Shown here: in pieces, positions 15,314-31,281 of the stretch
Layout: every line of letters begins with the position of its first letter
How positions within the stretch are numbered: position 1 is the stretch's first letter
Assembly: GCA_025935995.1 (NCBI GenBank)
Contig: JAICUF010000009.1
Coordinates: 1 to 49,762, forward strand
Length of the DNA: 49,762 nt
DNA from: Gemmatimonadales bacterium
Lineage (GTDB): Bacteria > Gemmatimonadota > Gemmatimonadetes > Gemmatimonadales > GWC2-71-9
Direction: 5' to 3'
Notes under the pieces: generated by a model
Told to the model about the DNA's origin: nothing
What the model saw: the letters and a program-made list of their open reading frames with translations, nothing else
Database searches by the model: none
Position numbers and translations under genes: made by a program

Positions 15314-17968
15314 TCAGTCGGATCGGAGCGTCGTCGCCGGATCCACCCGGCTCGCGTGCGCGGCCGGCACCCATGCCGCGGCAAGGCCTGCTGCGGCAAG
15401 GATGAGCGGCACCGCGACGAAGGTCGCCGGGTCGGCCGGCGGAATCTGATAGAGCAGCGCGGCGAGCGAGCGCGTCGCCGCGGCAGCCACCAGGACGCCT
15501 GCCGCGAGCCCGATGCCGACCAGCGCCAGGCCGTGGCGCACCACGAGCCAGCGGACCGCGGACGGCTCGGCGCCGAGGGCCAGCCGGATGCCCATCTCGT
15601 GCGAGCGGCGCTGCGCGAGCTGCGCCATCACCCCGTAGACGCCTACCACCGCCAGGACCACGCCAACGACCGCGAAGAGCAGCATCAGTGTGGTGAGGAA
15701 CCGGTCGCGCGCCGACGCGACCGTCCGCACTTCCCGCATGGTGCGGAGCGACGCGATCGCGAGCGAGGGATCGAGTCCCGCGACCACGCGCCGGATCGAC
15801 GGGCCGAGCACCGCGGGATCGCCCGCGGTGCGAGCCACGAGGATGCGGTAGTTGCCCGGGTTCTGCGCGACGGGGAAGTACGCCTCGATGCGCGGCTCGG
15901 CCGCGAGCTCGCGCTGCCGCTCGCTCCCGACGACGCCCACGATCGTGTACCACTTGGACGTGGAGTCCGGGACGCGATCGAACGTGATGCGCTGACCGAC
16001 CGGGCTGGTTCCCCGGAAGTACTGGCGGGCCAGCTGGTCGTTGATCAGCGTGACGGGCGGCGCGCCCGCGCGGTCCTCCGCCGTGAAGCGGCGGCCGCTC
16101 AGGAGCGGCACGCGCATCACGTCGAAGTAGTCGGGCGACACCATGCGGTGCATCACCTCGCTCCCGAACTCGCTCGCGGGGCGGCCGGCGATCACGAAAT
16201 CGCTGGTCCAGGTCGCGCCGGTGAGGGGAATCGCCGACGCAAGGGCCGCGTTGGTCACGCCCGGCACGCCCCGCACCTGCTCGACGAGCTGGTCGAAGAA
16301 GACGGGTCCGCGGACGCTGTCGTACGTCGCCTCGGGCAGGGCGATGGCGGCGGTCAGTACGCCCTCGGCCTCGAAGCCGGCGTTCACCTGCTGCAGCCGG
16401 AGAAAGCTCCGGACGAGCAGTCCGGCACCGAGGGTGAGCAGCACGGCGAGCCCCACCTCGGCGACCACGAGCCGCTCGGCCCAGCGCCGGCCGGTTCCGC
16501 CGGCGTCACCGCCGCGCCCGCCCTCCTTGATCGCATCGCCCGGGGCGCGGCGCCCGCTCCAGAGGGCCGGCGCGATCCCGAACGCGATGCCGCTCACGAA
16601 GGTCACGAGAAGGACGTACATCAGCACCCGCGCATCGAAGCCGATGTGCGCGACGCGCAGCATGCCCTCCGGCTGCAACGCGGCGAGGAGGCGCGTTCCC
16701 CCCATCCCCAACCCGATACCGACCGCGCCGCCGATGGCGGACAGGACGAGACTCTCGGCCAGTGCCTGGCGGATGATGCGCGAGCGGCCGGCGCCGAGCG
16801 CCAGGCGAAGCGCCGTCTCGCGCTCACGTCCGGCGGCCTGGACGAGGAGCAGGTTTCCCACGTTGGCGCAGGCGATGGCCAGCAGCAGCGACACCGCGGC
16901 AAGCAGGACGAGCAGCGGACGCCGCGCATCACCGACCAGGAAGCGATGCAGCGGCGTGAACCCGGCGCCCATCACGCTGTTGGTCTCGGGATACTCGTGC
17001 TGCAGCTGCCGCACGACGACCTGAAGCTCGGCGTTGGCCTGCTCGAGCGTGACGCCCGGCCGCAACCGCGCGACGGCCCGCGGCCAGTGGGCGCGCCGGA
17101 ACCAGATCTGGGACCGGTCCGACTGCTTCCACTCAAACGGCCCCCACAGGTCCACGTCGGGCAGCGGCGCCTCGAAGCGCTCGGGCATCACGCCGACGAT
17201 CTGCACCGGCTCGCCTTCCAGCTGGACGGTGCGGCCGACCACGGCGGTGTCGCCGCCGAAGTGCTCGAGCCACGCGTGGTGGCTCAACACGGCCACGTGC
17301 GTTCCACTGCCCCAGGTCTCGTCCGGCCGCAGGGTGCGGCCGAGCTCCGCGGCGACGCCCAGCACCGAGAAGAAGTTGCCGGTCACGCGGTCGCGCCGGA
17401 GGAGCCGCGGCGGCCCCTCGCCGGTCAGCGTCGCGTTCCCGATCCCCGTGTTGTAGAGGGCCACGTCGGCAAAGGCCGCCACACGGTCCTTCCAGTCGAG
17501 CGCGTTGGCGGGCGCCACGAGCTGCTCGTGCCAGTCCTTCTCCGGGTTCTCCTCCCACAGCATCACGAGCCGCCCCGGATCGGCGTACGGCAGGGGGCGC
17601 AGCACGACCGCTTCGACCGCGGAGAAGATCGTCGTGTTGGCGCCGATGCCGAGGGCCAGCGTGGCGATCGCCGTCAGGGCGAAGACGGGACGCCGTCGGA
17701 GATTCCTGAGCGCATGACGCGTGTCGGCCGCGAGATCCGCGAGCCAGCGCGTGCCCCGGCCGTCACGGTGCGCCTCCTTCGTCGCCTCGACGCCGCCGAA
17801 CGCGGCGAGTGCCCGCCGGCGCGCCTCGGCGGGCGCCATGCCGAGGGCGACGTTGCGCTCGGTCTCAAGATCGAGGTGAAGGCGGATCTCCTCGTCCAGC
17901 TCGGCTTCGATCGCGCCGCGGCGGAGGGCGGAACGGAGGCGCTGGCTCAGGCCGGTCAGTCGATGCAT
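15314..17968 (-). CDS. ADOP-type ABC transporter permease (MacB_PCD plus duplicated FtsX domains, no ATPase)
   Basis: RLRSALRRGAIEAELDEEIRLHLDLETERNVALGMAPAEARRRALAAFGG, RNLRRRPVFALTAIATLALGIGANTTIFSAVEAVVLRPLPY, two FtsX-like blocks. Confidence 0.92.
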   Translation of the reverse strand: MHRLTGLSQRLRSALRRGAIEAELDEEIRLHLDLETERNVALGMAPAEARRRALAAFGGVEATKEAHRDGRGTRWLADLAADTRHALRNLRRRPVFALTAIATLALGIGANTTIFSAVEAVVLRPLPYADPGRLVMLWEENPEKDWHEQLVAPANALDWKDRVAAFADVALYNTGIGNATLTGEGPPRLLRRDRVTGNFFSVLGVAAELGRTLRPDETWGSGTHVAVLSHHAWLEHFGGDTAVVGRTVQLEGEPVQIVGVMPERFEAPLPDVDLWGPFEWKQSDRSQIWFRRAHWPRAVARLRPGVTLEQANAELQVVVRQLQHEYPETNSVMGAGFTPLHRFLVGDARRPLLVLLAAVSLLLAIACANVGNLLLVQAAGRERETALRLALGAGRSRIIRQALAESLVLSAIGGAVGIGLGMGGTRLLAALQPEGMLRVAHIGFDARVLMYVLLVTFVSGIAFGIAPALWSGRRAPGDAIKEGGRGGDAGGTGRRWAERLVVAEVGLAVLLTLGAGLLVRSFLRLQQVNAGFEAEGVLTAAIALPEATYDSVRGPVFFDQLVEQVRGVPGVTNAALASAIPLTGATWTSDFVIAGRPASEFGSEVMHRMVSPDYFDVMRVPLLSGRRFTAEDRAGAPPVTLINDQLARQYFRGTSPVGQRITFDRVPDSTSKWYTIVGVVGSERQRELAAEPRIEAYFPVAQNPGNYRILVARTAGDPAVLGPSIRRVVAGLDPSLAIASLRTMREVRTVASARDRFLTTLMLLFAVVGVVLAVVGVYGVMAQLAQRRSHEMGIRLALGAEPSAVRWLVVRHGLALVGIGLAAGVLVAAAATRSLAALLYQIPPADPATFVAVPLILAAAGLAAAWVPAAHASRVDPATTLRSD

Positions 17969-17992
17969 GGTGACGGTCTCCCCTATGACGGA

Positions 17993-18328
17993 TCAGCTGG
18001 TCGCGAGAATCCATTCGACGGCGCTTACGTATCGTCTCCAGCTCGCGGTCTCTTCGTGCAGCGCCTCGCGGCCGCGCGGCGTGAGCGCGTAGTAGCGGGC
18101 GCGGCGATTGTGCTCCGTCACCTGCCATTCGCTCGTGATCAATCCCCGGTGCCCCAGCCGCTGGAGCGCCGGGTAGAGGGAGCCCTGGTTCACGTCGAGC
18201 ACGCCGCGCGAGAACTGCTGGATGCGCTGGCTGATGCCCCAGCCGTGCATGGGCGCGAGCGTCAGGGTCTTGAGGATGAGGAGGTCGAGGGTGCCCCGAA
18301 GGACGTCGGCGGGGGTCGGGTTCGCCAT
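17993..18328 (-). CDS. PadR family transcriptional regulator
   Basis: LRGTLDLLILKTLTLAPMHGWGISQRIQQFSRGVLDVNQGSLYPALQRLGHRGLITSEWQVTEHNRRARYYALTPRGREAL. Confidence 0.95.
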   Translation of the reverse strand: MANPTPADVLRGTLDLLILKTLTLAPMHGWGISQRIQQFSRGVLDVNQGSLYPALQRLGHRGLITSEWQVTEHNRRARYYALTPRGREALHEETASWRRYVSAVEWILATS

Positions 18329-18349
18329 GAGTGCCGGGGTTGAGGGTTG

Positions 18350-18372
18350 TATCTGTCGGCTTCCGACAGATA
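18350..18372. promoter_or_regulatory. perfect inverted repeat TATCTGTCGG-ctt-CCGACAGATA, putative PadR operator
   Basis: 10-bp perfect arms, 22 bp upstream of the PadR ATG, overlapping its predicted -10 (AACTAT). Confidence 0.7.
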
Positions 18373-18398
18373 GTTCTGCCCGTTCTGTTGGAAGTCAA
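18370..18398 (-). promoter_or_regulatory. padR promoter: TTGACT-N17-AACTAT
   Basis: Reverse complement of 18370-18398. Confidence 0.55.
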
Positions 18399-18416
18399 GG
18401 GGAGCGATCCGGGGTC

Positions 18417-18445
18417 TTGACAGAAATCTACAGGTGTAATATTAC
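18417..18445 (+). promoter_or_regulatory. blaI promoter: TTGACA-N17-TATTAC
   Basis: TTGACA 18417-18422, 17-nt spacer, TATTAC 18440-18445. Confidence 0.7.
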
Positions 18446-18453
18446 ATGTGTAG
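18428..18453. promoter_or_regulatory. double cop/bla-box operator CTACAggTGTAatatTACAtgTGTAG
   Basis: Two TACAnnTGTA half-boxes separated by 4 bp; overlaps the -10 and start region of the blaI promoter. TACAnnTGTA is the established CopY/BlaI/MecI-type box. Confidence 0.85.
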
Positions 18454-18486
18454 TCGTTTGCTCCCGGATCCCGCTCAGGAGTCGCC

Positions 18487-18888
18487 ATGCCAGAGTCTCA
18501 CCAGCTCACCGAGCTTCAACTCGCTCTCCTGCGCGTGCTGTGGCAGCGCGGCGAAGCGACCGTCGCCGACATCTCGGAGGCGCTCCGCCCCGACCGTTCG
18601 CTCGCTCCAACCACCGTGGCCACGCTGCTCTCCCGGCTCGAGCGTCGGGGCGTGGTGACCCACCGGGTCGAATCGCGCCAGTTCGTCTACAGCGCCACGG
18701 TCTCCGAGGACGCCGTGCGGCATTCGATGCTGAGCGAGCTCACCGAGCAGCTCTTCGATGGTGACGTGGCCGAGCTGGTGAGCCATCTGCTGAGCGCCCG
18801 CGAGATCAGCTCCGGGGACCTCGACAAGGTGAAGGACCTGATTGCGCACCACGAATCCCGCATGGAGGTCTCCGATGAGTCGCGCTGA
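18487..18888 (+). CDS. blaI: BlaI/MecI/CopY family transcriptional repressor
   Basis: LTELQLALLRVLWQRGEATVADISEALRPDRSLAPTTVATLLSRLERRGVVTHRVESRQFVYSATVSED; winged-helix signature of the family. Confidence 0.93.
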   Translation: MPESHQLTELQLALLRVLWQRGEATVADISEALRPDRSLAPTTVATLLSRLERRGVVTHRVESRQFVYSATVSEDAVRHSMLSELTEQLFDGDVAELVSHLLSAREISSGDLDKVKDLIAHHESRMEVSDESR

Positions 18889-20881
18889 TCTGCCGGCCTG
18901 GCTGCTCACCTACGCGATCCACAGCACGCTGCTCATCGGGGCGGTCTGGCTGCTGGTGCGGCGCGGCGTCATCCGGTCGCATCATCTCCAGGACACCTTC
19001 TGGAAGGCGGCGCTCCTGGGCGGCCTCCTCACCGCGACCGCCCAGACTGCGCTGGGCATCCGGCCGCAGGGAAGCGTGGCGATCCGCGCGGCCGATCAGC
19101 CGTCGCTCGTTCCGACCACGCTGATCCGCCGCCAGACGGGCCCCGGCGCGCCGGCGGACCGGACCCCGGAGCGTCCCGTCGACGCCCGGCGTGCGGCCAC
19201 CGAGGCGGCACCGGTCCCGAGCGCGGCCGCGGCGACCCCGAGCTCGCTGCACCAGGCTTCGGCCGAAGAGATCGCCGCGACGACGTCGAGCTGGCCGCGC
19301 ATCGCCGACCTGTTTCCGATGGTCTGGATCGCGCTCGCGGCGCTCCTGCTGCTGCAGCTCGCGATCGCGCGGTTCCGGCTGTCGTGGCGTATCGGCCCGC
19401 GCGAGCCGATGGCCGGCTCGCCGCTCGACGCGCACGTGGCGGCGCTCTGCCGCGCGGCCGGGGTGCGGCGCCCGATCCGCCTTACGGCGGCCGAGGGGCT
19501 GGCGAGCCCCGTCGCGCTGGGGCGCTCCGAGATCTGCATCCCGCGCGCCGTCCTCACCGACCTCGAGCCGGCGCAGCAGCGAAGCGTGCTGGCGCATGAG
19601 CTCGCGCACCTCACCCGCTCCGATCCCATCTGGCTCATGGCCGCCTGCGTGATCGAGCGCGCGTTCTTCTTCCAGCCGCTCAACCGGCTCGCGCGGCGGC
19701 GCATGCAGGAGACGGCGGAGTACTTGTGCGACGACTGGGCCGTGGGCCGGACCGGCTCCGGTCTCACGATGGCGAAGAGCCTGGTGAAGGTCGCGGAATG
19801 GATGCACACGCCGGCGCTGCCCCTGCCGCTGTCGGGAATGGCGGAGACGCCGTCGCAGCTGGTGGCGAGGGTCAGGCGGCTGGTGGACGACCGGGAGCCC
19901 AGGCAGGTCCGGCGGCGCTGGCACGTGCCGGCGGCGTTCGCGGTCGTGGGCGGGATGGCGCTGATGGTGCCGGGCGTGATGCCCGCGGCCGAGCGCGCGG
20001 CGGCAACGCCGGCGCAGACGGTGCAGGACACCACGCCCCGCCGCGTCCGGCGCACGCCGGCGCCCGACTTCCCGGTCGTGGTGGACATCCCGCGGATGCG
20101 GATCTCTCCGACGCCCCTGCCCACCCCGGTGGTGAACGGCATCGCCCGCGCGGCGATCGCCTCCGCCATGCGCAATGTGGCGCCGATGCTCGCCGGCGTC
20201 CGTTCGCACGAGCCGCAGGACACCGCCCGGAACTCGGCCCGCGTGGCCGCGCTGGTCGCGGCGCTCAAGGACAGCGACGCCGAAGTGCGGCGCGCCGCCG
20301 CCAATTCATTGGGCCAGCTCGAGGACAAGCGCGCCGTCACCGCGCTGATGGCCGCGCTCCGCGACAGCGACGCCGACGTGCGGGCACAGTCTGCCTGGGC
20401 GCTCGGGCAGCTCGAGGACAAGCGCGCCGTCGCGTCCCTCACCGGCGCGCTCAAGGACGAGAACGTCGAGGTCCGGCGCAAGGCGGCCTGGGCGCTGGGC
20501 CAGCTCGAGGACGACAGTGCGGCGGCAGGACTGGCCGCGGCGCTCCGCGATGCCGATGCCGACGTGCGGAAGACGGCGGCCTGGAGCCTCGGTCAACTCG
20601 AGCTGCAGACGGCGCCGCCGGCGCTGCTCGAGGCGCTCCACGACCAGAACGCCGACGTGCGCCGCACCGCGGCGTGGGCGGTGAGCGAGATGGGCGATGC
20701 CCGCGCGGTGCCTGCGCTCCGCGAAATGCTGAACGATGCCGACGCCGACGCCCGCAAGAATGCGATCCACGCGCTCGGCCAGATCCGCGATTCGACGGCC
20801 CTGCAGGCCATCATCGGCGCGATGCAGTCGAAGGACGCCGAGATCCGCCGCGCCGCCGCCCAGGCGCTCGGCGACCGTTGA
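18875..20881 (+). CDS. M56 (BlaR1-like) membrane metallopeptidase fused to C-terminal HEAT repeats
   Basis: ATG 18875 overlaps the blaI end. N-terminal TM helices, zinc motif VLAHELAHLTRSDP, ETAEYLCDDWAV, last TM (VPAAFAVVGGMALMVPGV), then about 7 HEAT repeats (ALRDSDADVRAQSAWALGQLED). Confidence 0.9.
   Translation: MSRADLPAWLLTYAIHSTLLIGAVWLLVRRGVIRSHHLQDTFWKAALLGGLLTATAQTALGIRPQGSVAIRAADQPSLVPTTLIRRQTGPGAPADRTPERPVDARRAATEAAPVPSAAAATPSSLHQASAEEIAATTSSWPRIADLFPMVWIALAALLLLQLAIARFRLSWRIGPREPMAGSPLDAHVAALCRAAGVRRPIRLTAAEGLASPVALGRSEICIPRAVLTDLEPAQQRSVLAHELAHLTRSDPIWLMAACVIERAFFFQPLNRLARRRMQETAEYLCDDWAVGRTGSGLTMAKSLVKVAEWMHTPALPLPLSGMAETPSQLVARVRRLVDDREPRQVRRRWHVPAAFAVVGGMALMVPGVMPAAERAAATPAQTVQDTTPRRVRRTPAPDFPVVVDIPRMRISPTPLPTPVVNGIARAAIASAMRNVAPMLAGVRSHEPQDTARNSARVAALVAALKDSDAEVRRAAANSLGQLEDKRAVTALMAALRDSDADVRAQSAWALGQLEDKRAVASLTGALKDENVEVRRKAAWALGQLEDDSAAAGLAAALRDADADVRKTAAWSLGQLELQTAPPALLEALHDQNADVRRTAAWAVSEMGDARAVPALREMLNDADADARKNAIHALGQIRDSTALQAIIGAMQSKDAEIRRAAAQALGDR
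20248..20878 (+). repeat. tandem HEAT-repeat coding units (about 7 x 31 aa)
   Basis: RVAALVAALKDSDAEVRRAAANSLGQLED / KRAVTALMAALRDSDADVRAQSAWALGQLED / KRAVASLTGALKDENVEVRRKAAWALGQLED and so on. Confidence 0.85.
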
Positions 20882-20892
20882 GAGGAGAGGAC

Positions 20893-22551
20893 ATGCGACC
20901 GATGACACGATTTACGGCAGGGGTGACCGCGCTCGCGGTGGCGGGTGCGGCGGCAGCCGCGGCCCAGGCGATCCACATCCGCGTGCCGAAGGTGCACGTG
21001 GTGGTGCCTCACATCCACGTGACGGCCGCCATGCGGGCCGGCAATCGGCCGGGCCCCGACTCCGCCATGGTGAGCGGATTCCTCGCTTCCCTCGGCCGCG
21101 CCGACGCGGTGGTCTGCGAGATGGCGGTGAACCAGCTCGGCAACTCGTGGGGCCGGTGGGGTGGCGGCGCCAGGAACGGTCTCCGCGATCGCACCGAGCC
21201 CCAGCGCCTGGAGCAGGACCGCCTCGGCGGCTCGGTGGGCGACGCCCGGGCGGTTCCGCTGCTCGCCGCGTCACTGGGCGACCAGAACCCCTGCGTCCGA
21301 CGCGCCGCCGCGCGTTTGCTGGCTTCGAGCACCGTGCCCGAAGCCGTGGCGCGTCTCCGCTCGGCGGCGCAGGCGAGCGACGGCCGCACCCGCGAAGCCG
21401 CGCTCCTTGGCCTGGGCGAGGCCGATGACGCGGCCTCATTCGACGTGATGCTGCGCGGTCTCCACGACAGCGACCCCTATGTCGCCCGGATGGGCGCGTG
21501 GGGGCTCGGGCAGCTCCAGGACCAGCGGTCGGTCACGCCGCTCATCGAGGCGCTCCGCTCGAGCGATGCCGGTGTCCGCGAGACGAGCGCCTGGGCGCTG
21601 GGCAACATTCAGGACCGGCGCGCGGTCGAGCCGCTCCTTCCGCTCCTCAAGGATGGCAGCGCCGACGTGCGCGGCACCACCGCGCACGCGCTGGGCGAGA
21701 TCCAGGATGCGCGGGCCACCAGCGGGCTGGTCGGCGTGCTGAGCGACGCCGACGTCCAGGTGCGCCTCGAGGCGGCTCACGCCCTCGGGGAGATCCAGGA
21801 TCACGCGGCGGTCGACGGGCTCGTGCGCGCTCTCCGGGACGCCGACGCCGATGTCCGCCAGGCGGCAGCACATTCACTCGGCGAGATTCAGGATCCCCGC
21901 GCGGCCGAGCCGCTGGCGGCGCTGCTCACGAGCGGCGATGCCAGCGCCGACGTGCGGCAGGCGGCCGCGCACTCGCTCGGCGAGCTGGATCTCAAGCACG
22001 CGCCGGCCGGCATGATCGCGGCGCTCAGGGACAGGGACGCCGACGTACGCCAGGCCGTGGCCCATTCTCTCGGCGAGATTCAGGACCACGGCGCGGTGGA
22101 CGGACTGATCGGCGCGCTTCGCGATCCCGATGCTGACGTGCGCCAGGCCGCCGCCCACTCGCTGGGCGAGATTCAGGACGCGCGCGCGGGCGACCCGCTG
22201 GCGGCGCTGATGACCGACGGAAATGCCGACGTGAGGCAGGCTGCCGCGCATTCGCTGGGCGAGCTCGAGCTCAAGAGCGCGCCCGCCGGCCTCGCTGCCG
22301 CGCTGCACGACGGCGACCCGGACGTACGCGAGGCCGCGGCACACGCTCTGGGAGAGATCGCCGACCCCGCCTCCGTGCCGGCGCTCTCGGCGGCATTCAA
22401 GGACACCGACACCGACGTGCGCCGCGCCGTGATCCACGCGTTGAGTGAAATCGAGGGCGGGGCTTCCACTGACGCCCTCGTGGCAGCCATGAAGGACGCA
22501 GATCCCGAGATCCGCCGGGCGGCGGCGCACGCCCTGGGTCAGAAGGACTGA
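20893..22551 (+). CDS. exported HEAT-repeat protein
   Basis: Signal peptide MTRFTAGVTALAVAGAAAAAAQA, then about 14 HEAT repeats (DADADVRQAAAHSLGEIQD). Confidence 0.88.
   Translation: MRPMTRFTAGVTALAVAGAAAAAAQAIHIRVPKVHVVVPHIHVTAAMRAGNRPGPDSAMVSGFLASLGRADAVVCEMAVNQLGNSWGRWGGGARNGLRDRTEPQRLEQDRLGGSVGDARAVPLLAASLGDQNPCVRRAAARLLASSTVPEAVARLRSAAQASDGRTREAALLGLGEADDAASFDVMLRGLHDSDPYVARMGAWGLGQLQDQRSVTPLIEALRSSDAGVRETSAWALGNIQDRRAVEPLLPLLKDGSADVRGTTAHALGEIQDARATSGLVGVLSDADVQVRLEAAHALGEIQDHAAVDGLVRALRDADADVRQAAAHSLGEIQDPRAAEPLAALLTSGDASADVRQAAAHSLGELDLKHAPAGMIAALRDRDADVRQAVAHSLGEIQDHGAVDGLIGALRDPDADVRQAAAHSLGEIQDARAGDPLAALMTDGNADVRQAAAHSLGELELKSAPAGLAAALHDGDPDVREAAAHALGEIADPASVPALSAAFKDTDTDVRRAVIHALSEIEGGASTDALVAAMKDADPEIRRAAAHALGQKD
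21802..22365 (+). repeat. two tandem copies of a 3-HEAT superunit (about 285 and 279 bp)
   Basis: HAAVDGL..SLGEIQD-PRAAEPLAAL..SLGEL-DLKHAPAGMIAAL..SLGEIQD, then HGAVDGL..-ARAGDPLAAL..-ELKSAPAGLAAAL.. Confidence 0.7.
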
Positions 22552-22568
22552 CCGGCGGGCACAACGCG

Positions 22569-22605
22569 GCCGGCGGTGACGGGCGTCATGGCCGTCACCG
22601 CCGGC
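22569..22605 (+). terminator. strong hairpin after the HEAT operon, 14-bp perfect stem GCCGGCGGTGACGG/CCGTCACCGCCGGC
   Basis: Perfect inverted repeat starting 17 bp after the stop codon; no U-tract. Confidence 0.65.
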
Positions 22606-22644
22606 TTCGTGCATCATGCCGCGAGACTTCACGCGGAGCGGCCG

Positions 22645-24917: not shown

Positions 24918-26522
24918 ATGCGCCGACTTCTGTTCTCTCTCGTTGTCCTTGCCGCCGGCGGCTGTCACAAGTTCGACAGCGACGAGATGACCGCCACGCT
25001 CGAGCGGACGGTGACGGCGAAGGCCGCGCCGCGCTACGCCGCGACCCGGTGGAAGATGATGCAGGGCATCTACCACGAGCGCGGGTATGCCCCGATCTGG
25101 CTCGACCGGGAGAAGCCGCGGCAGCAGGCCCGGGATCTGATCGACGCGCTCACCAGCGCGGAGAACCAGGGCCTGCGGATGCACGACTACGACCTCAAGG
25201 GGCTCCGAGCGACGCTCGACCAGGCCTACCACGAGGGCAAGACGACCACGCAGGACCTCGCCAACCTCGACCTGCGGCTCACGTCGCTCTTTCTGGACTA
25301 CGGGCAGGACCTGCTGGTCGGCCGCCTGGATCCGTCGGCGGTGGACAGCGGCTGGTACATCAAGTCGCGACGGAGCGCGGTGGACAGCACGCTGCGCGCC
25401 GCCATCCGCCAGCCCGACTTCCGGTCGATGGTGCAACCACTCATGCCGCAGCAGAAGGAGTACGGCGAGCTGGTGGCGTGGCTGGAGAAGTACCGGGCGC
25501 TCGGCGACCGGGGCGGATGGGCGGCGGTGACGCCGCGGGACACCGCGTCGCTCCGTGCGCGCCTCGCCGCGACCGGGGACATCGACGGCGCCGCCGCGCT
25601 GGCCGACGGCATTCGCCATTTCCAGGCCCGGCACGGGCTCGAGACGACCGGCAAGGTGGACAGTGCGACCCTGGCGGAGCTCAACGTGCCGATCGGGCGC
25701 CGTATCCGGCAGCTCGAGCTCAACCTGGAGCGCCTCCGCTGGCTTCCAGCCGACTTCGGCGACCGGTACGTCCTCGTCAACATCCCCGACTACACCCTGC
25801 ACGCCTACGACAACGGCCGCGAGGCGCTGTCGATGAAAGTCGTGGTGGGCGACGAATACGGTCACGCCACGCCGATCTTCGCCGACACGATGAGCCAGGT
25901 CGTCTTCCAGCCCTACTGGAACGTGCCGCCCAGCATCGTGAAGGCCGAGATCCTGGGGCATGTCCAGAAGGACCCCGGCTACCTGGCGGCGCACCATTAT
26001 CAGGTCGTGCGGGGCAACGGTGACGAGGTGGTGAGCCCGACGTCGGTGGACTGGAACGACATCGATACGACGAAGATGGACTTTCGCGTGCGGCAGGAGC
26101 CGGGCGACGACAACGCCCTGGGGCACGTGAAATTCGTCTTCCCCAACCGCTTCAACATCTACATGCACGATACGCCGGCGCGATCGCTCTTCTCGAAGAA
26201 CGAGCGGTCCGGCAGCCACGGCTGCATCCGGCTCGAGCATCCTGAAGAGTTCGCGGAGTTCGTGCTGGCAGGCGACCCTGCATGGACACCGGACCGCATC
26301 CGGGAGGCGATGGCCTCCGATTCCAACCGCTCAGTCACGGTCAAGCGGCGGCTGCCGGTGTACATCATCTACCTGACCGCCTTCGTCCGCGACGGCCAGC
26401 TTCAGTTCCGGGACGACGTCTACGGCACCGATGCGCGCGCCGCCGCCCGCCTCGGCACGCCGGCGGCGGACAGCGGACTCGACTCGGCCAAGCGCGTGCT
26501 CAAGGGGTCCCTCAAGAGCTGA
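24918..26522 (+). CDS. L,D-transpeptidase (YcbB-like, YkuD domain with peptidoglycan-binding domain)
   Basis: Lipoprotein-like N-terminus (LVVLAAGGCHK); IRHFQARHGLETTGKVDSATLAELNVP; catalytic HDTPARSLFSKNERSGSHGCIRLEHPEEFAEFVL. Confidence 0.93.
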   Translation: MRRLLFSLVVLAAGGCHKFDSDEMTATLERTVTAKAAPRYAATRWKMMQGIYHERGYAPIWLDREKPRQQARDLIDALTSAENQGLRMHDYDLKGLRATLDQAYHEGKTTTQDLANLDLRLTSLFLDYGQDLLVGRLDPSAVDSGWYIKSRRSAVDSTLRAAIRQPDFRSMVQPLMPQQKEYGELVAWLEKYRALGDRGGWAAVTPRDTASLRARLAATGDIDGAAALADGIRHFQARHGLETTGKVDSATLAELNVPIGRRIRQLELNLERLRWLPADFGDRYVLVNIPDYTLHAYDNGREALSMKVVVGDEYGHATPIFADTMSQVVFQPYWNVPPSIVKAEILGHVQKDPGYLAAHHYQVVRGNGDEVVSPTSVDWNDIDTTKMDFRVRQEPGDDNALGHVKFVFPNRFNIYMHDTPARSLFSKNERSGSHGCIRLEHPEEFAEFVLAGDPAWTPDRIREAMASDSNRSVTVKRRLPVYIIYLTAFVRDGQLQFRDDVYGTDARAAARLGTPAADSGLDSAKRVLKGSLKS

Positions 26523-26531
26523 CGGGTCGGG

Positions 26532-26798
26532 CTAGCGGTGCCTGAGCGAGTCCCTGGTCGTGTCGCCCATGGTGCCGGCGGCGCCCGTGGGGCTCGTCGT
26601 CCCGGTCCCGCCGGCGCTCGAGCCGGTGGTCCCGGTGCCGCTCGTGGCGGCACCGGTCGTGCCGGTGCCGGTGCCCATCGTCCCCGTCTGGCTCGAGGTG
26701 GTCGCGGCCGAGTCGGCGGCACTGCGGGTGCCATCGGCCTTCGGCCCGCAGGCGGTAATAGCGAGCGCCGCGCCCGCTGCGAGCATGATCCGTATCAT
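26532..26798 (-). CDS. small Thr/Gly/Ser-rich lipoprotein
   Basis: Lipobox MIRIMLAAGAALAITACG, then GTGTGTTGAATSGTGTTGSSAGGTGTTSPTG; ATGA overlap with the upstream Mur ligase gene. Confidence 0.6.
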   Translation of the reverse strand: MIRIMLAAGAALAITACGPKADGTRSAADSAATTSSQTGTMGTGTGTTGAATSGTGTTGSSAGGTGTTSPTGAAGTMGDTTRDSLRHR

Positions 26799-28501
26799 GT
26801 CGATGTCCCTCCCTGCAGAGCGTCGAGCCGCGCCATCACGGCCGGCCGGTCTTCGTGCGTGAGCATGACGACGAGGTCGCCGGGTCGGGCCCAGTCGAGC
26901 GCGGACTCGAGCGCCTCCGGTTCGGTCGTGACCTCGTCCAGCTCTTCCGGCGGCAGTCCGAGGCGGCTGAATTCCGCGGCGAGGATGCGGCGGACCTCAC
27001 CCGGGACACGCCCGCGGTAGAGCGTCGGCAGCTCCTTCAGCACGACGCGCGTCGGCCTGAGGCCCCACGCCGCGCGCGCGAGCTCGCGTATGGCCTCGTC
27101 CCCGCGGTCGCCCGCCTGGCCCACCACGACCAGCCGCCGCTGGCCGCCCAGTGCCTCCACCATCCCCGCCAGCGCGATCAGGCCGTGCGGATTGTGCCCG
27201 TAGTCCACGAGCACCCGCACTCCTCCCACATCGTAGAGATTCCCGCGCCCCGGATTGGTGACCGGTGACCCGAACCCGGCGAGGGCGTCCGCGATCGTTT
27301 CCGGCGTGATGGTCCGGGCGGCGGGAAGGCCGCTCAGGACGGCGGCGGCGAGCAGGGCGGCGAGCGCGTTCGACACGTTGTACCCGGCGGCGCCGCCACA
27401 GGTCATCGGCACGGCGTCGAGGCGTGTCAGGCGGAGGGGCCGGCCGCCCTGCGCGAGCACGAGGCAGCCGTCATCCACGTAGGCCGCGTCGCCCCCGGCG
27501 GCGAGTCCGATGGCAAGGAGCGGGCTGGCGCGGTCCCGCGCGAACCAGCTCGCGGGCGAGACGCCGAGCGCATGGGCGGCGAGACCCGGGTCGTCGGCGT
27601 TGAGGACCACGCGGCCGCCGGGCCGCACCACCCGCGCCGCGACCAGCTTGACGGCGGCGAGAGTCGCCAGATCGTTGACGCCGAAATCGTCGAGGTGATC
27701 CGCGGCGACGTTGGTGAGAATCGTGACGTCCGCGTGATCGACGGCGAGGCCGCGCCGGAGGATCCCGCCGCGGGCCGTCTCGAGCACGCCGATCCGGGCG
27801 CGGGGATCACGGAGCGCCAGGCGCGCACCCATCGGCCCGGCGTAGTCCCCGGTGACGAGCTGATCGCGGCCGACGCTGACGCCGTCGGTCGAGGTGAGCG
27901 CCGGCGTGAGGCCGGCGCCGGCGGCGATCGCGGCGATGAGCCGGGCGGTCGTCGTCTTCCCGTTGGAGCCCGAGACGAGCACGATCGGAATGTCGTGCAC
28001 CGCGGCCCACTCCACCTCGGTCGCGCGGGGAAGTTCGTGCCGCGGCCAGACGCGTGCACCGGTTCCGGTCCCCACCGACACCAGCTCGTCGTCGGCGAGG
28101 AAGGTGAGGCCACGCGCATGGGCCGCGCGGTGGAGATCGGCGAGACGGAGGTCGCGCTCGCGGGCGATGACCTCGCGGAGCCGGGCGGCGGTGGCAGTGG
28201 GGTCGGCGGCCGGCGAGCCGTCGAGCGCCGCCGTGGCCGCCTCCCACGCCGCCTCGTTCACCTCGGTGGCGGCGTAGAGCGCGTCCACCGGCGCGGTGAT
28301 GACCAGACACGCGCCGCCCGCGAAGGTGCGGGCGGCGACGTCCTCGCCCTTCCAGCCGACCAGGTCGAGGAGGCGGCGGGCCTCGTGCCGCCAGAGGTCG
28401 GCGGCGTCGGTCACGTCGCCGGCCACGTCGAGCGCCGCGCCGGGCCGGTCGCCCATGAGGTGGGGTCCCGTGAGCCGGCGCGAGTCGAGCAGCCGGATCA
28501 A
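26795..28501 (-). CDS. Mur ligase family protein (CphA-like, without ATP-grasp)
   Basis: VLVSGSNGKTTTARLIAAIA, VLETARGGILRRGLAVDHADVTILTNVAADHLDDFGVN, NPGRGNLYDVGGVRVLVDYGHNPHG; TTG start overlaps the cphA stop (TTGA). Confidence 0.9.
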   Translation of the reverse strand: MIRLLDSRRLTGPHLMGDRPGAALDVAGDVTDAADLWRHEARRLLDLVGWKGEDVAARTFAGGACLVITAPVDALYAATEVNEAAWEAATAALDGSPAADPTATAARLREVIARERDLRLADLHRAAHARGLTFLADDELVSVGTGTGARVWPRHELPRATEVEWAAVHDIPIVLVSGSNGKTTTARLIAAIAAGAGLTPALTSTDGVSVGRDQLVTGDYAGPMGARLALRDPRARIGVLETARGGILRRGLAVDHADVTILTNVAADHLDDFGVNDLATLAAVKLVAARVVRPGGRVVLNADDPGLAAHALGVSPASWFARDRASPLLAIGLAAGGDAAYVDDGCLVLAQGGRPLRLTRLDAVPMTCGGAAGYNVSNALAALLAAAVLSGLPAARTITPETIADALAGFGSPVTNPGRGNLYDVGGVRVLVDYGHNPHGLIALAGMVEALGGQRRLVVVGQAGDRGDEAIRELARAAWGLRPTRVVLKELPTLYRGRVPGEVRRILAAEFSRLGLPPEELDEVTTEPEALESALDWARPGDLVVMLTHEDRPAVMARLDALQGGTST

Positions 28502-31281
28502 TCCTCTCCCTCGCTGTCGCGCGCGAAGCGGACGCCACGCACGTCCCGCACGTAGGAGAGGGGACGATCCTCCGGCGGGACGGGGCCGGGTGCCGGCCGG
28601 GTGCGCGGGCGGCGGGCGCCACGCCGCTCGGCCTCGAGTGGACGGAAGCTCACGATCTGCTCCCAGGATCGCGCCACGTTGTCGCCGAAGACCAGCACGA
28701 GATCGCCGGCATTGGCCGAGTGAAGCGCGAGCTCGGTGGCCTCGACCTCGTCGGGCACGACGTCGATGGCGTCGGGGCTCACGCCTTCGGCGAGCAGCGT
28801 ATCGCGGAGGAGCGTCGGAATTTCGTCCGGCCCGCGGCCTCGGAGCGCGTCGTCCCGCCGGCAGATGTAGTGGTCGAAGGAGCCCGCGGTGATGCGGGCG
28901 ATGGCGCGGATGTCCTCGTCGCGGCGGTCGCCCGGCGCGGCGAGGACCACGATGCGCCGTCCGCCGCTGTCGAGCCGCTCGACGAACTGGATCATGGCCT
29001 CGATGGCCGCGGCGTTGTGGCCGTAGTCGAGAATGACCTTGAAGGGGTGCTCGTCGAAGACGTTGCCGCGGCCCGGCGCCTGGAAGAACGTGGTGTCGAA
29101 GGTCTGCAGGCCGTGACGGATGTTCTCCAGCTTGAGTCCCATGCTGAACGCCATCGCCGCGGCGAACATCGCGTTCTGCACCTGGTGCATCGCCCGCGCC
29201 TCGAGCGTGGCCGGGATGAGATGGGCCGGGAGCAGCGGGATGTGCGCCCCATGGTCGTAGATCGTGATCATCTGGCCCGTCATCCCGCCCTCGAGCACCA
29301 CGCCGCGGCCGCCGGCCTGGATGTGCTCCCGCACGAGCGCGTGACTCGGGTCCATCGTCACGTAGCAGACGTGCTTCGCCTCGGTGTGGTCGGCCATGCG
29401 GAGGCAGAGCGGGTCGTCGGCATTGAGGACGGCGGTGTCGCGCGCGACCTCGACCACGATCCGCTTCACCTTGGCCAGCCCTTCGAGCGTATTGATGCCG
29501 CGGAGTCCCAGGTGGTCGGACTTCACGTTGAGCACGGCGCCCACGTCCACGTGCCGCACGCCCATGCCGGCCCGGAGCAGTCCGCCGCGGGCCACCTCGA
29601 GCACCGCCACGTCGACGAACGGATCGCTCAGCACCATGCGCGTCGACACGGGGCCCGTCATGTCGCCCGCAACGGTGCGCTGGCCGTCGATGTAGACGCC
29701 GTCGGTGGTGGTGAGGCCGACGTGATGCCCGGCGAGCTTGTGAATGTGCGCGAGCATCCGCGCCGTCGTCGTCTTCCCGTTGGTCCCCGTCACGGCCGCG
29801 ATCGGAATGCGGCTCGGCGCGCCGGCCGGGAAGAGCATGTCGATGAGCGGCCCGGCCACGTCGCGCGGCCGGCCGGCGCTCGGTGCCATGTGCATCCGGA
29901 AGCCGGGCGCGGCGTTCACCTCGCAGATCGCGCCGCCCACCTCCTTGTACGAGCGGCTGATGTCGGTGGTGAGGAAGTCGACGCCGCCGACGTCGAGCCC
30001 GATCGCGCTCACCGCGCGCACCGCCATCTCGGCGTTGTCGGGATGCACCACGTCCGTCATGTCGATGGCGGTGCCGCCGGTGGAGAGGTTGCCGGTGGAC
30101 CGGAGGAAGACGGTCTCGCCCGCGACCGGCACGCTGGACGGCGTGTAGCCGTGGCGGAGCATCATCTGCTCCGCCTGATGGTCGAACTCGAGCCGCGTGA
30201 GCACCTTCTCGTGGCCGATGCCGCGCCGCGGATCCGCGTTCACCTCCTCCACCAGTGCGGCGATGGTCCGCCGGCCGTCGCCCACCACGTGACCCGGGAT
30301 GCGCTGGGAAACGGCCACCAGCTCGCCGTTGATGACCAGCATCCGGTGGTCGAAGCCGCTGATGAACTTCTCGATGATCACGCTCCGGCTGTGCTCCGCC
30401 GCCACGTCGAAGGCGAGCGCCACCTGATCGCCGTCGGTGAGGCCGATCGAGATGCCGCGGCCGTGGTTGGCGTTCCAGGGCTTCACCACGACGGGGTAGC
30501 CGATCTTCTCCGCGGCGTCCACCGCCGCGGCGGCCGTCCGGACGAGTGCCTGCCGCGGCACCGGCAGGCCGAGCCGCGCCAGCACCTTGTTGGTTTCCTC
30601 CTTGTCGGAGGCGAGCTCCACCGCGATGTGCGAGGTGCGGCTCGTCACCGTCGCCTGCACCCGCTGCTGGTAGCGCCCGTGCCCCAGCTGGATCAGGCTG
30701 TTGGTGCCGAGCCGGATCCACGGGATGCGCCGCTCCTCGGCGGCGTGCACCAGCGCACCGGTGCTCGGTCCCAGCGCATGCCGCTGCGTATAGCGAATGA
30801 ATTCATCCCGGGCGGCGGCGAAGTCGAACCCCTCGGGCACCGAGTCCGCGGGACGCAGCTCCGGCGGCAGGAGGCTGTGCAGCAGCGTGAGGCCGAGGTC
30901 GCCGGCCTCGATGCCGACTTCGGCCTGCTCGTACTGGTAGATGACCATGTACTGCCCGTGCGGGCCGAGCGAGCGGGTCTTCCCGAAGGTGAGCGGATGG
31001 CCCGCGACGTTCTGCAGCTCGATCGCCACGTGCTCCAGGATGTGGCCGAGCCAGGTGCCCCGGTCCTCCGTGAGCCGGCGGACGAACCCGCCCGGCTCGC
31101 CGTAGGAGCAGCCGTGGGTGCGAAGGCCCGGCAGGGCCTCGAGCAGCCCGTCGACAAAGGCGGGGCCGAGTCGGACGGAGGGCCACTCCTCCAGCTCGCC
31201 CAGGTCCAGATCGAGGCGGATGACCGGGAAGTGGGCGTAGAGGCTCGGCCCGACGAAGACGGACCGCTCGAGGATCTTCAT
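28498..31281 (-). CDS. cphA: cyanophycin synthetase (ATP-grasp plus Mur ligase)
   Basis: MKILERSVFVGPSLYAHFPVIRLDLDLGELEEWPS, GYPVVVKPWNANHGRGISIGLTD, AVTGTNGKTTTARMLAHIHKLAGHHVGLTTTDGVYIDGQ, KVILDYGHNAAAIEAM. Confidence 0.95.
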   Translation of the reverse strand: MKILERSVFVGPSLYAHFPVIRLDLDLGELEEWPSVRLGPAFVDGLLEALPGLRTHGCSYGEPGGFVRRLTEDRGTWLGHILEHVAIELQNVAGHPLTFGKTRSLGPHGQYMVIYQYEQAEVGIEAGDLGLTLLHSLLPPELRPADSVPEGFDFAAARDEFIRYTQRHALGPSTGALVHAAEERRIPWIRLGTNSLIQLGHGRYQQRVQATVTSRTSHIAVELASDKEETNKVLARLGLPVPRQALVRTAAAAVDAAEKIGYPVVVKPWNANHGRGISIGLTDGDQVALAFDVAAEHSRSVIIEKFISGFDHRMLVINGELVAVSQRIPGHVVGDGRRTIAALVEEVNADPRRGIGHEKVLTRLEFDHQAEQMMLRHGYTPSSVPVAGETVFLRSTGNLSTGGTAIDMTDVVHPDNAEMAVRAVSAIGLDVGGVDFLTTDISRSYKEVGGAICEVNAAPGFRMHMAPSAGRPRDVAGPLIDMLFPAGAPSRIPIAAVTGTNGKTTTARMLAHIHKLAGHHVGLTTTDGVYIDGQRTVAGDMTGPVSTRMVLSDPFVDVAVLEVARGGLLRAGMGVRHVDVGAVLNVKSDHLGLRGINTLEGLAKVKRIVVEVARDTAVLNADDPLCLRMADHTEAKHVCYVTMDPSHALVREHIQAGGRGVVLEGGMTGQMITIYDHGAHIPLLPAHLIPATLEARAMHQVQNAMFAAAMAFSMGLKLENIRHGLQTFDTTFFQAPGRGNVFDEHPFKVILDYGHNAAAIEAMIQFVERLDSGGRRIVVLAAPGDRRDEDIRAIARITAGSFDHYICRRDDALRGRGPDEIPTLLRDTLLAEGVSPDAIDVVPDEVEATELALHSANAGDLVLVFGDNVARSWEQIVSFRPLEAERRGARRPRTRPAPGPVPPEDRPLSYVRDVRGVRFARDSEGED

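Follow-up and report, generated by a model that had tools for sequence, protein, structure and literature searches.

A BlaI–M56 operon of Gemmatimonadota in which a HEAT-repeat receptor is paired with an exported HEAT-repeat protein

The window, the whole stretch of 49,762 nucleotides analyzed here, comes from a metagenome-assembled genome (MAG, 87% complete) of Gemmatimonadota and contains a tight three-gene operon on the + strand, in the order blaI, M56 protease with HEAT repeats, and exported HEAT protein. The reading that we favor, with a probability of about 0.6, is that of a self-contained operon of the BlaI/BlaR1 type whose sensor and main product are HEAT solenoids related to each other. 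To our knowledge, BlaR1 and MecR1 are known almost only as β-lactam sensors. In the literature searched, no paper was found that links M56/BlaI with HEAT sensors; both halves are known to domain databases, which may well list such architectures.

RESULTS

Layout of the operon

Open reading frames were called mechanically. Upstream of blaI, a −35-like TTGACA can be read directly (18417..18422, + strand), and a complete sigma-70 site at this promoter was not scored by the consensus scan. Just downstream of the TTGACA starts the putative BlaI-type operator CTACAGGTGTAATATTACATGTGTAG, with two TACAnnTGTA boxes (18428..18453). The three genes follow on the + strand: the repressor P0002 of 133 aa (18487..18888), the M56 protein P0001 of 668 aa (18875..20881), and the exported partner P0003 of 552 aa (20893..22551). 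A 14-bp overlap between the first two genes had been read earlier from the letters alone and is borne out, with the M56 gene starting at an ATG at 18875 and blaI ending at 18888. The third gene is adjacent, as that sequence-only reading had it, but the spacing of 12 bp has to be corrected: The M56 stop and the next ATG, at 20893, are 11 bp apart. Directly after the operon lies a terminator-like hairpin on the + strand (22568..22606; 15-bp stem, −46 kcal/mol, z −4.2 over 22550–22620), with no T-run downstream. The interval 18417–22605 thus takes in the operator and nearly all of this hairpin. A pseudogene or chance-ORF reading of the operon is ruled out by its conservation.

On the − strand, a PadR regulator and a MacB/FtsX (ADOP-type) permease (15314–18328) are oriented away from the operon, possibly with a promoter region in common; they were rejected as members of the system, the permease adjoining the operon only in the congeneric genome. 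Downstream lie an L,D-transpeptidase-like gene with an SHGCIRL motif (24918–26522, +) and a Mur-ligase/cyanophycin-synthetase-like frame (26795–30721, −), both recognized by eye. Around the operons of relatives, no conserved neighbors were found beyond the three operon genes.

The receptor

P0001 carries an M56 peptidase domain (PF05569, 82.7 bits against a cut-off of 31, E 3.4e-23) with the motif HELAH. For a profile (A1) built from six orthologous M56 regions, BlaR1 is the sole significant match in the PDB (8exs/8exp, E 3e-7). The HEXXH and EXXXD gluzincin motifs have been described for BlaR1 (PMC9834060), and the corresponding zinc-ligand and catalytic positions H241, E242, H245, E282, and D286 are invariant in 29/29 aligned receptors.

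Behind a disordered linker, the ectodomain of P0001 is modeled by AlphaFold2 as seven HEAT helix pairs (pLDDT 94–98; the AlphaFold2 alignments held 29 sequences). Pfam HEAT models, including HEAT_2, match residues ∼455–668 (E 3.6e-64, a value inflated by repetition, as repeat-domain E-values are). No penicillin-binding or β-lactamase domain was found by Pfam in the operon, so that the earlier statement that about seven HEAT units replace the penicillin-binding sensor holds. The NCBIfam model blaR1_generic scores 21.7 bits on the receptor against a cut-off of 400. The build is BlaR1-like but the β-lactam sensor is missing, and the protein is therefore not a BlaR1 in the strict sense.

The topology follows from the mean number of K+R before and after each transmembrane segment in 29 orthologs: 0.2/3.3 for TM1, 2.3/1.0 for TM2, 0.8/2.8 for TM3, and 2.2/1.2 for TM4. 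By the positive-inside rule, TM1 and TM3 run out-to-in and TM2 and TM4 in-to-out; the protein is therefore predicted to be N-out/C-out with the HEAT domain extracytoplasmic, the same topology as in BlaR1 (PMC9834060). This charge pattern speaks against a cytoplasmic HEAT domain. By anatomy, catalytic residues, and predicted topology, the receptor is a BlaR1-type M56 protease.

Repressor, operator, and regulon

The assignment of P0002 as a BlaI-like repressor is confirmed by its Penicillinase_R domain (PF03965, 101.5 bits, E 4.7e-29) and by matches to the MecI/BlaI structures 1sd6, 1okr, and 1sd4; its best NCBIfam match is CopY_TcrY, below the cut-off of that model. BlaI of S. aureus is cut between N101 and F102 (PMC9834060), and at the equivalent position 32/32 BlaI homologs of the window's clade (clade A, see below) conserve (H/Q)–L.

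The palindromic TACA/TGTA candidate operator sits over blaI's own promoter, and similar palindromes are found upstream of blaI in most relatives. The sequence TACANNTGTA is the reported operator core of BlaI, MecI, and CopY, and this 10-base core by itself predicts binding poorly (PMC7253601). The search was read for the exact double form TACAnnTGTA-N(0–8)-TACAnnTGTA in 12 genomes. It occurs once per genome in 5/12 (the source genome, its congener, G010, G025, and G086), always at the operon, and one of these five genomes, G025, is a single 4.6-Mb contig. The other 7/12 genomes contain no exact double box, and the pattern read backward, as a control, gave zero matches. Single CTACAnnTGTAG sites turned up at three further places (L131, L136, L137), with unrelated ORFs or nothing recognizable behind them. 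A wider regulon by the exact double box is excluded, with no second site in any of the 12 genomes; by this operator search the operon is apparently its own regulon. As regards β-lactamase or PBP2a, the targets of BlaR1/MecR1 control, the operon and the double-box search lead to the HEAT partner alone. Given the 7/12 genomes without the exact double box, a regulon via single or degenerate boxes may exist. The paralogous BlaI–M56 loci of the source genome have other palindromes, TGCTGAATATTCAGCA on contig C19 and GTGTTGAAATATCAGCAC on contig C134, which suggests that its BlaI–M56 switches are insulated from each other.

The exported partner

The earlier description of the third product, a signal peptide followed by about 14 HEAT units, agrees with the AlphaFold2 model, a continuous solenoid of ∼14–15 helix pairs (pLDDT 90.4, pTM 0.84) behind a Sec-type signal peptide. 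Only HEAT/ARM-type Pfam models match P0003, and HEAT models cover most of it (E 3.5e-85, inflated in the same way). In 29/29 aligned partners, a signal peptide and two cysteines 52–60 residues apart are present (C75 and C134 in P0003, both invariant); this two-Cys N-terminal module is common to the partners of clades A and B. The tandem HEAT helix pairs in both proteins of the window are supported by Pfam HEAT models, AlphaFold2, and Foldseek. By Foldseek, the folds nearest to the two HEAT regions are those of alphaRep, a family of artificial HEAT binders; for the partner, the PP2A scaffold subunit is among them as well. The claim that both proteins share one repeat consensus stands for closeness and fails for identity (..AAWxLGQLED.. 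in the receptor, ..AAHSLGEIQD.. in the partner).

HEAT proteins are common in the source genome. Among 399 Gemmatimonadota genomes, the partner profile matches 216 at 1e-8, many of these matches being generic HEAT proteins, and the full N-terminal module of the partner is present in ∼75. Two-Cys N-module proteins with no adjoining M56 (L143, L144, L146, L147, L149, and L153) make up a branch of these exported HEAT proteins that stands on its own. Partners of 489 aa at L138 and L139 (genomes G068 and G237) have the length and profile score of the C134 partner of the source genome, and no M56 was found in these MAGs; both genes lie near contig ends behind a HEAT fragment, and misbinning or misassembly is possible. 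The same applies to contig C140 of G237, which has two inverted partner copies near its two ends.

Since no other neighbor is conserved, the partner would be the sole non-regulatory product of the operon. The sequence-only reading had considered it either the effector or a feedback antagonist; the apparent single-operon regulon favors an effector, and, given the lack of other conserved neighbors, the operon probably has no effector besides the exported HEAT protein.

Conservation of the pair

The pairing was analyzed in 63 loci from named genomes, fetched by the M56 region alone. The gene order of the operon proved to be conserved: An adjacent downstream HEAT ORF is present at 31/32 M56–HEAT loci versus 0/31 other M56 loci (Fisher p 3.6e-17, a descriptive value that ignores the shared ancestry of the related rows). 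At the one unpaired locus, L061, the contig ends 413 bp downstream, and in a copy of this contig the start of the partner is visible. The pairing is also seen among order-level relatives. In relatives, a HEAT gene follows the M56–HEAT gene at 15/17 loci, the exceptions being L049 and L054. In further Gemmatimonadota, at least 48/70 partner N-modules lie directly downstream of an M56: 41/70 sit 1.2–1.9 kb downstream of a listed M56, and 20 others were inspected, of which seven adjoin an M56 (in one case the visible frame has no HEXXH), six follow a HEAT fragment at a contig end, and seven stand alone. Since at least six partner-like proteins occur inside contigs without an adjoining M56, the partner can exist without the receptor. 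A matched pair of M56–HEAT receptor and exported HEAT protein is, from these comparisons, recurrent across Gemmatimonadota.

The similarity matrices of receptor tails and partner tails correlate at 0.84, a value equal to that between the receptor tail and its own M56, as expected if both tails are co-inherited. The similarity of a receptor to its own partner (0.282) exceeds that to the average partner (0.227), with 0/10,000 permutations as high. On the other hand, the own partner is the best match to the receptor in only 2/30 loci, and receptor tails resemble other receptors' tails far more than they resemble partners; there is therefore no sign of a pair-specific code, and concerted evolution of receptor and partner repeats was not seen in this comparison. 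Charge complementarity of the concave faces was also rejected. The mean charge at concave positions is −0.82 per unit in the receptor and +0.09 in the partner, acidic against neutral, yet both vary in the same direction (r 0.52), which gives no evidence for a charge code.

Two clades, with and without a tryptophan ladder

The window operon belongs to clade A and the C134 locus of the source genome to clade B, with distinct M56 domains. Genome G025 likewise has operons of both clades. Clade B forms a single supported group that non-HEAT M56 rows separate from clade A (the sampling is centered on A), and the pairing holds in this second M56 clade too. A third M56–HEAT case, L093, stands apart from both. 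Three Myxococcaceae MAGs nest within clade A, which suggests transfer, provided that the binning is correct.

In clade B, the exposed position x of AA-x-ALG is Trp in 84% of receptor units and 64% of partner units; in clade A, it is Trp in 5% and 20%, respectively. We take this position to be position 26 of alphaRep, on the randomized binding face. The control, other HEAT proteins of the source genome, gave 0 Trp in just 15 units, which is too few. At their ends, receptors of clade B have a PWPWP-type tail, and their partners have PWPWPxPRPFP or, at L045 and L056, a Pro-rich tail without Trp; the Pro/Trp tail is absent from clade A. The Trp ladder and the Pro/Trp tails of clade B together suggest a contact of the peptide-in-solenoid type.

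Other M56 loci

The source genome has three BlaI–M56 loci. Two have a HEAT sensor followed by an exported HEAT protein; at the third (L010:3200–7086, that is, contig C19 at about 17200–21085), the sensor is made of ∼30-residue SSDGD repeats and is followed by an exported protein with the same repeats (E 2e-20). These repeats have no match in Pfam or NCBIfam. SSDGD-like repeats lie entirely within the receptor at L048, L050, and L052, and a related SSDLE form occurs in a Pseudomonadota MAG (locus L120). The extensions of other M56 relatives are, by eye, coiled-coil, PDZ-like, or LRR-like, and the gene that follows is not matched to them. Because loci with other sensors are mostly without a matched partner, the pairing cannot be generalized to all M56 systems. 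By eye, the C-terminal sensors at L022, L025, L046, L053, L070, and L122 are TonB-plug-like, TonB-C-like, DUF4097-like, PDZ/coiled coil, or LRR. From this diversity, the M56 receptor family of Gemmatimonadota and relatives looks like a general sensor platform.

DISCUSSION

The operon shares with BlaI–BlaR1–BlaZ and MecI–MecR1 (S. aureus, B. licheniformis) the repressor family, the TACA/TGTA operator core, the M56 gluzincin protease, the N-out/C-out plan, a repressor gene beside the receptor gene and, as proposed here, an induced exported product. In contrast to BlaR1 and MecR1, the sensor is a HEAT solenoid instead of a penicillin-binding domain, and, unlike in bla and mec, the product is a HEAT protein and not an enzyme, and the operator was found nowhere but at the operon. 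Repressors of the CopY/CopR type belong to the same family and use the same TACANNTGTA core, but the window operon is without a copper ATPase, and a gene for an M56 protease replaces metal control. The alphaRep and PP2A-A-type solenoids have the fold of both HEAT regions; they are artificial or eukaryotic and have no link to M56 signaling.

In the mechanism that we propose, BlaI would bind the two TACAnnTGTA boxes over the promoter and repress its own operon alone. The M56 protein would reside in the inner membrane, with the zinc protease in the cytoplasm and the HEAT domain in the periplasm. A change of state of the HEAT domain would lead the protease to inactivate BlaI, most likely by a cut at the equivalent of N101/F102 of S. 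aureus, and the operon would be induced, with the exported HEAT protein, the effector, as the product. As the effector has the fold of the sensor and is encoded beside it, the sensed state would most likely be set by the effector or by its ligand. Sensor and effector could recognize one periplasmic ligand, as in bla, or free effector could bind the sensor and be drawn away once the ligand appears. The sequence-only reading had named three outcomes that would speak against it, namely a HEAT domain predicted in the cytoplasm, loss of the M56 zinc ligands among orthologs, and a gene order that is not conserved; none of them occurred, and the anatomy on which that reading built is borne out. Its mechanistic step, by which an exported solenoid or the ligand of one would act via the HEAT domain of the receptor, is compatible with the data, which give no separate support to envelope stress as the input.

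The first of these forms, in which sensor and exported protein bind the same periplasmic molecule and never touch, is a serious candidate, although we would sooner wager against it than for it. A parallel is seen in bla and mec, where the fold of the sensor is akin to that of secreted proteins that bind the same ligand; in bla, the sensor and the secreted enzyme bind the same drug. The nearest folds, alphaRep and the PP2A scaffold subunit, are binding scaffolds without catalysis, and no receptor–partner pair code was seen; the difference in mean concave charge (−0.82 vs. +0.09 per unit) is a weak argument against an identical ligand. The ligand could tentatively be a protein that is misfolded or mislocalized, or a peptide, with the exported protein a binder or scaffold made on demand; this, too, falls somewhat short of even odds. 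In the other form, the exported protein binds the HEAT domain of the receptor and switches it off (or on) in a titration loop of the CpxP or BiP type. In CpxP/CpxA and BiP/Ire1 feedback, a soluble product sets its own sensor; this logic would be shared by the window operon, to which there is no homology. Gene adjacency and autoregulation speak for such feedback, and binding of two HEAT-like solenoids face to face has a precedent in alphaRep A3/bA3-2, which bind via their concave faces (PMC3754942). In clade B, the Trp ladders in both proteins and the Pro/Trp tail on the receptors and most partners make a mutual peptide–solenoid contact plausible. Against it, the window's clade is without the tail and mostly without the ladder (5% of receptor units), and the own partner is seldom the best-matching one, so that we regard this form as possible but doubtful.

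Outside the preferred reading of a self-contained switch, the partner could be an ordinary secreted housekeeping HEAT protein, with the pairing an old duplication kept by linkage. HEAT proteins are indeed common in the source genome, and partner-like genes occur without M56. But the pairing spans divergent lineages and Myxococcaceae MAGs, the other neighbors are not conserved, and the operon is equipped with an operator of its own. Pure linkage would be expected to decay, which makes this explanation quite improbable. That there is no BlaR1-type switch at all, the HEAT domain being cytoplasmic or the protease dead, is contradicted by the topology pattern and the invariant zinc ligands and is very improbable.

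A more specific proposal, which we consider unlikely as a whole, is a self-contained homeostat of the periplasm in which the related HEAT ectodomain and effector bind each other (in clade B via the Trp ladders and Pro/Trp tails). The M56 protease would then read the level of free effector, and the effector would serve in the periplasm as a general scaffold that binds proteins. If true, the operon would contain a proteolytic switch responding to how far its own product is occupied.

In the preferred reading, the same protease–repressor engine as in bla powers a closed loop of three genes, in which the solenoid on the outside binds protein and the product is a matching solenoid made for export. 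This M56–HEAT loop is widespread in Gemmatimonadota and present also in Myxococcaceae MAGs. If true, BlaI/M56 modules would be general one-step transmembrane switches, the input of which is changed by domain exchange, and the operon, being small and testable, would be suited to finding out what is sensed by an M56 receptor that has a protein as its ligand.
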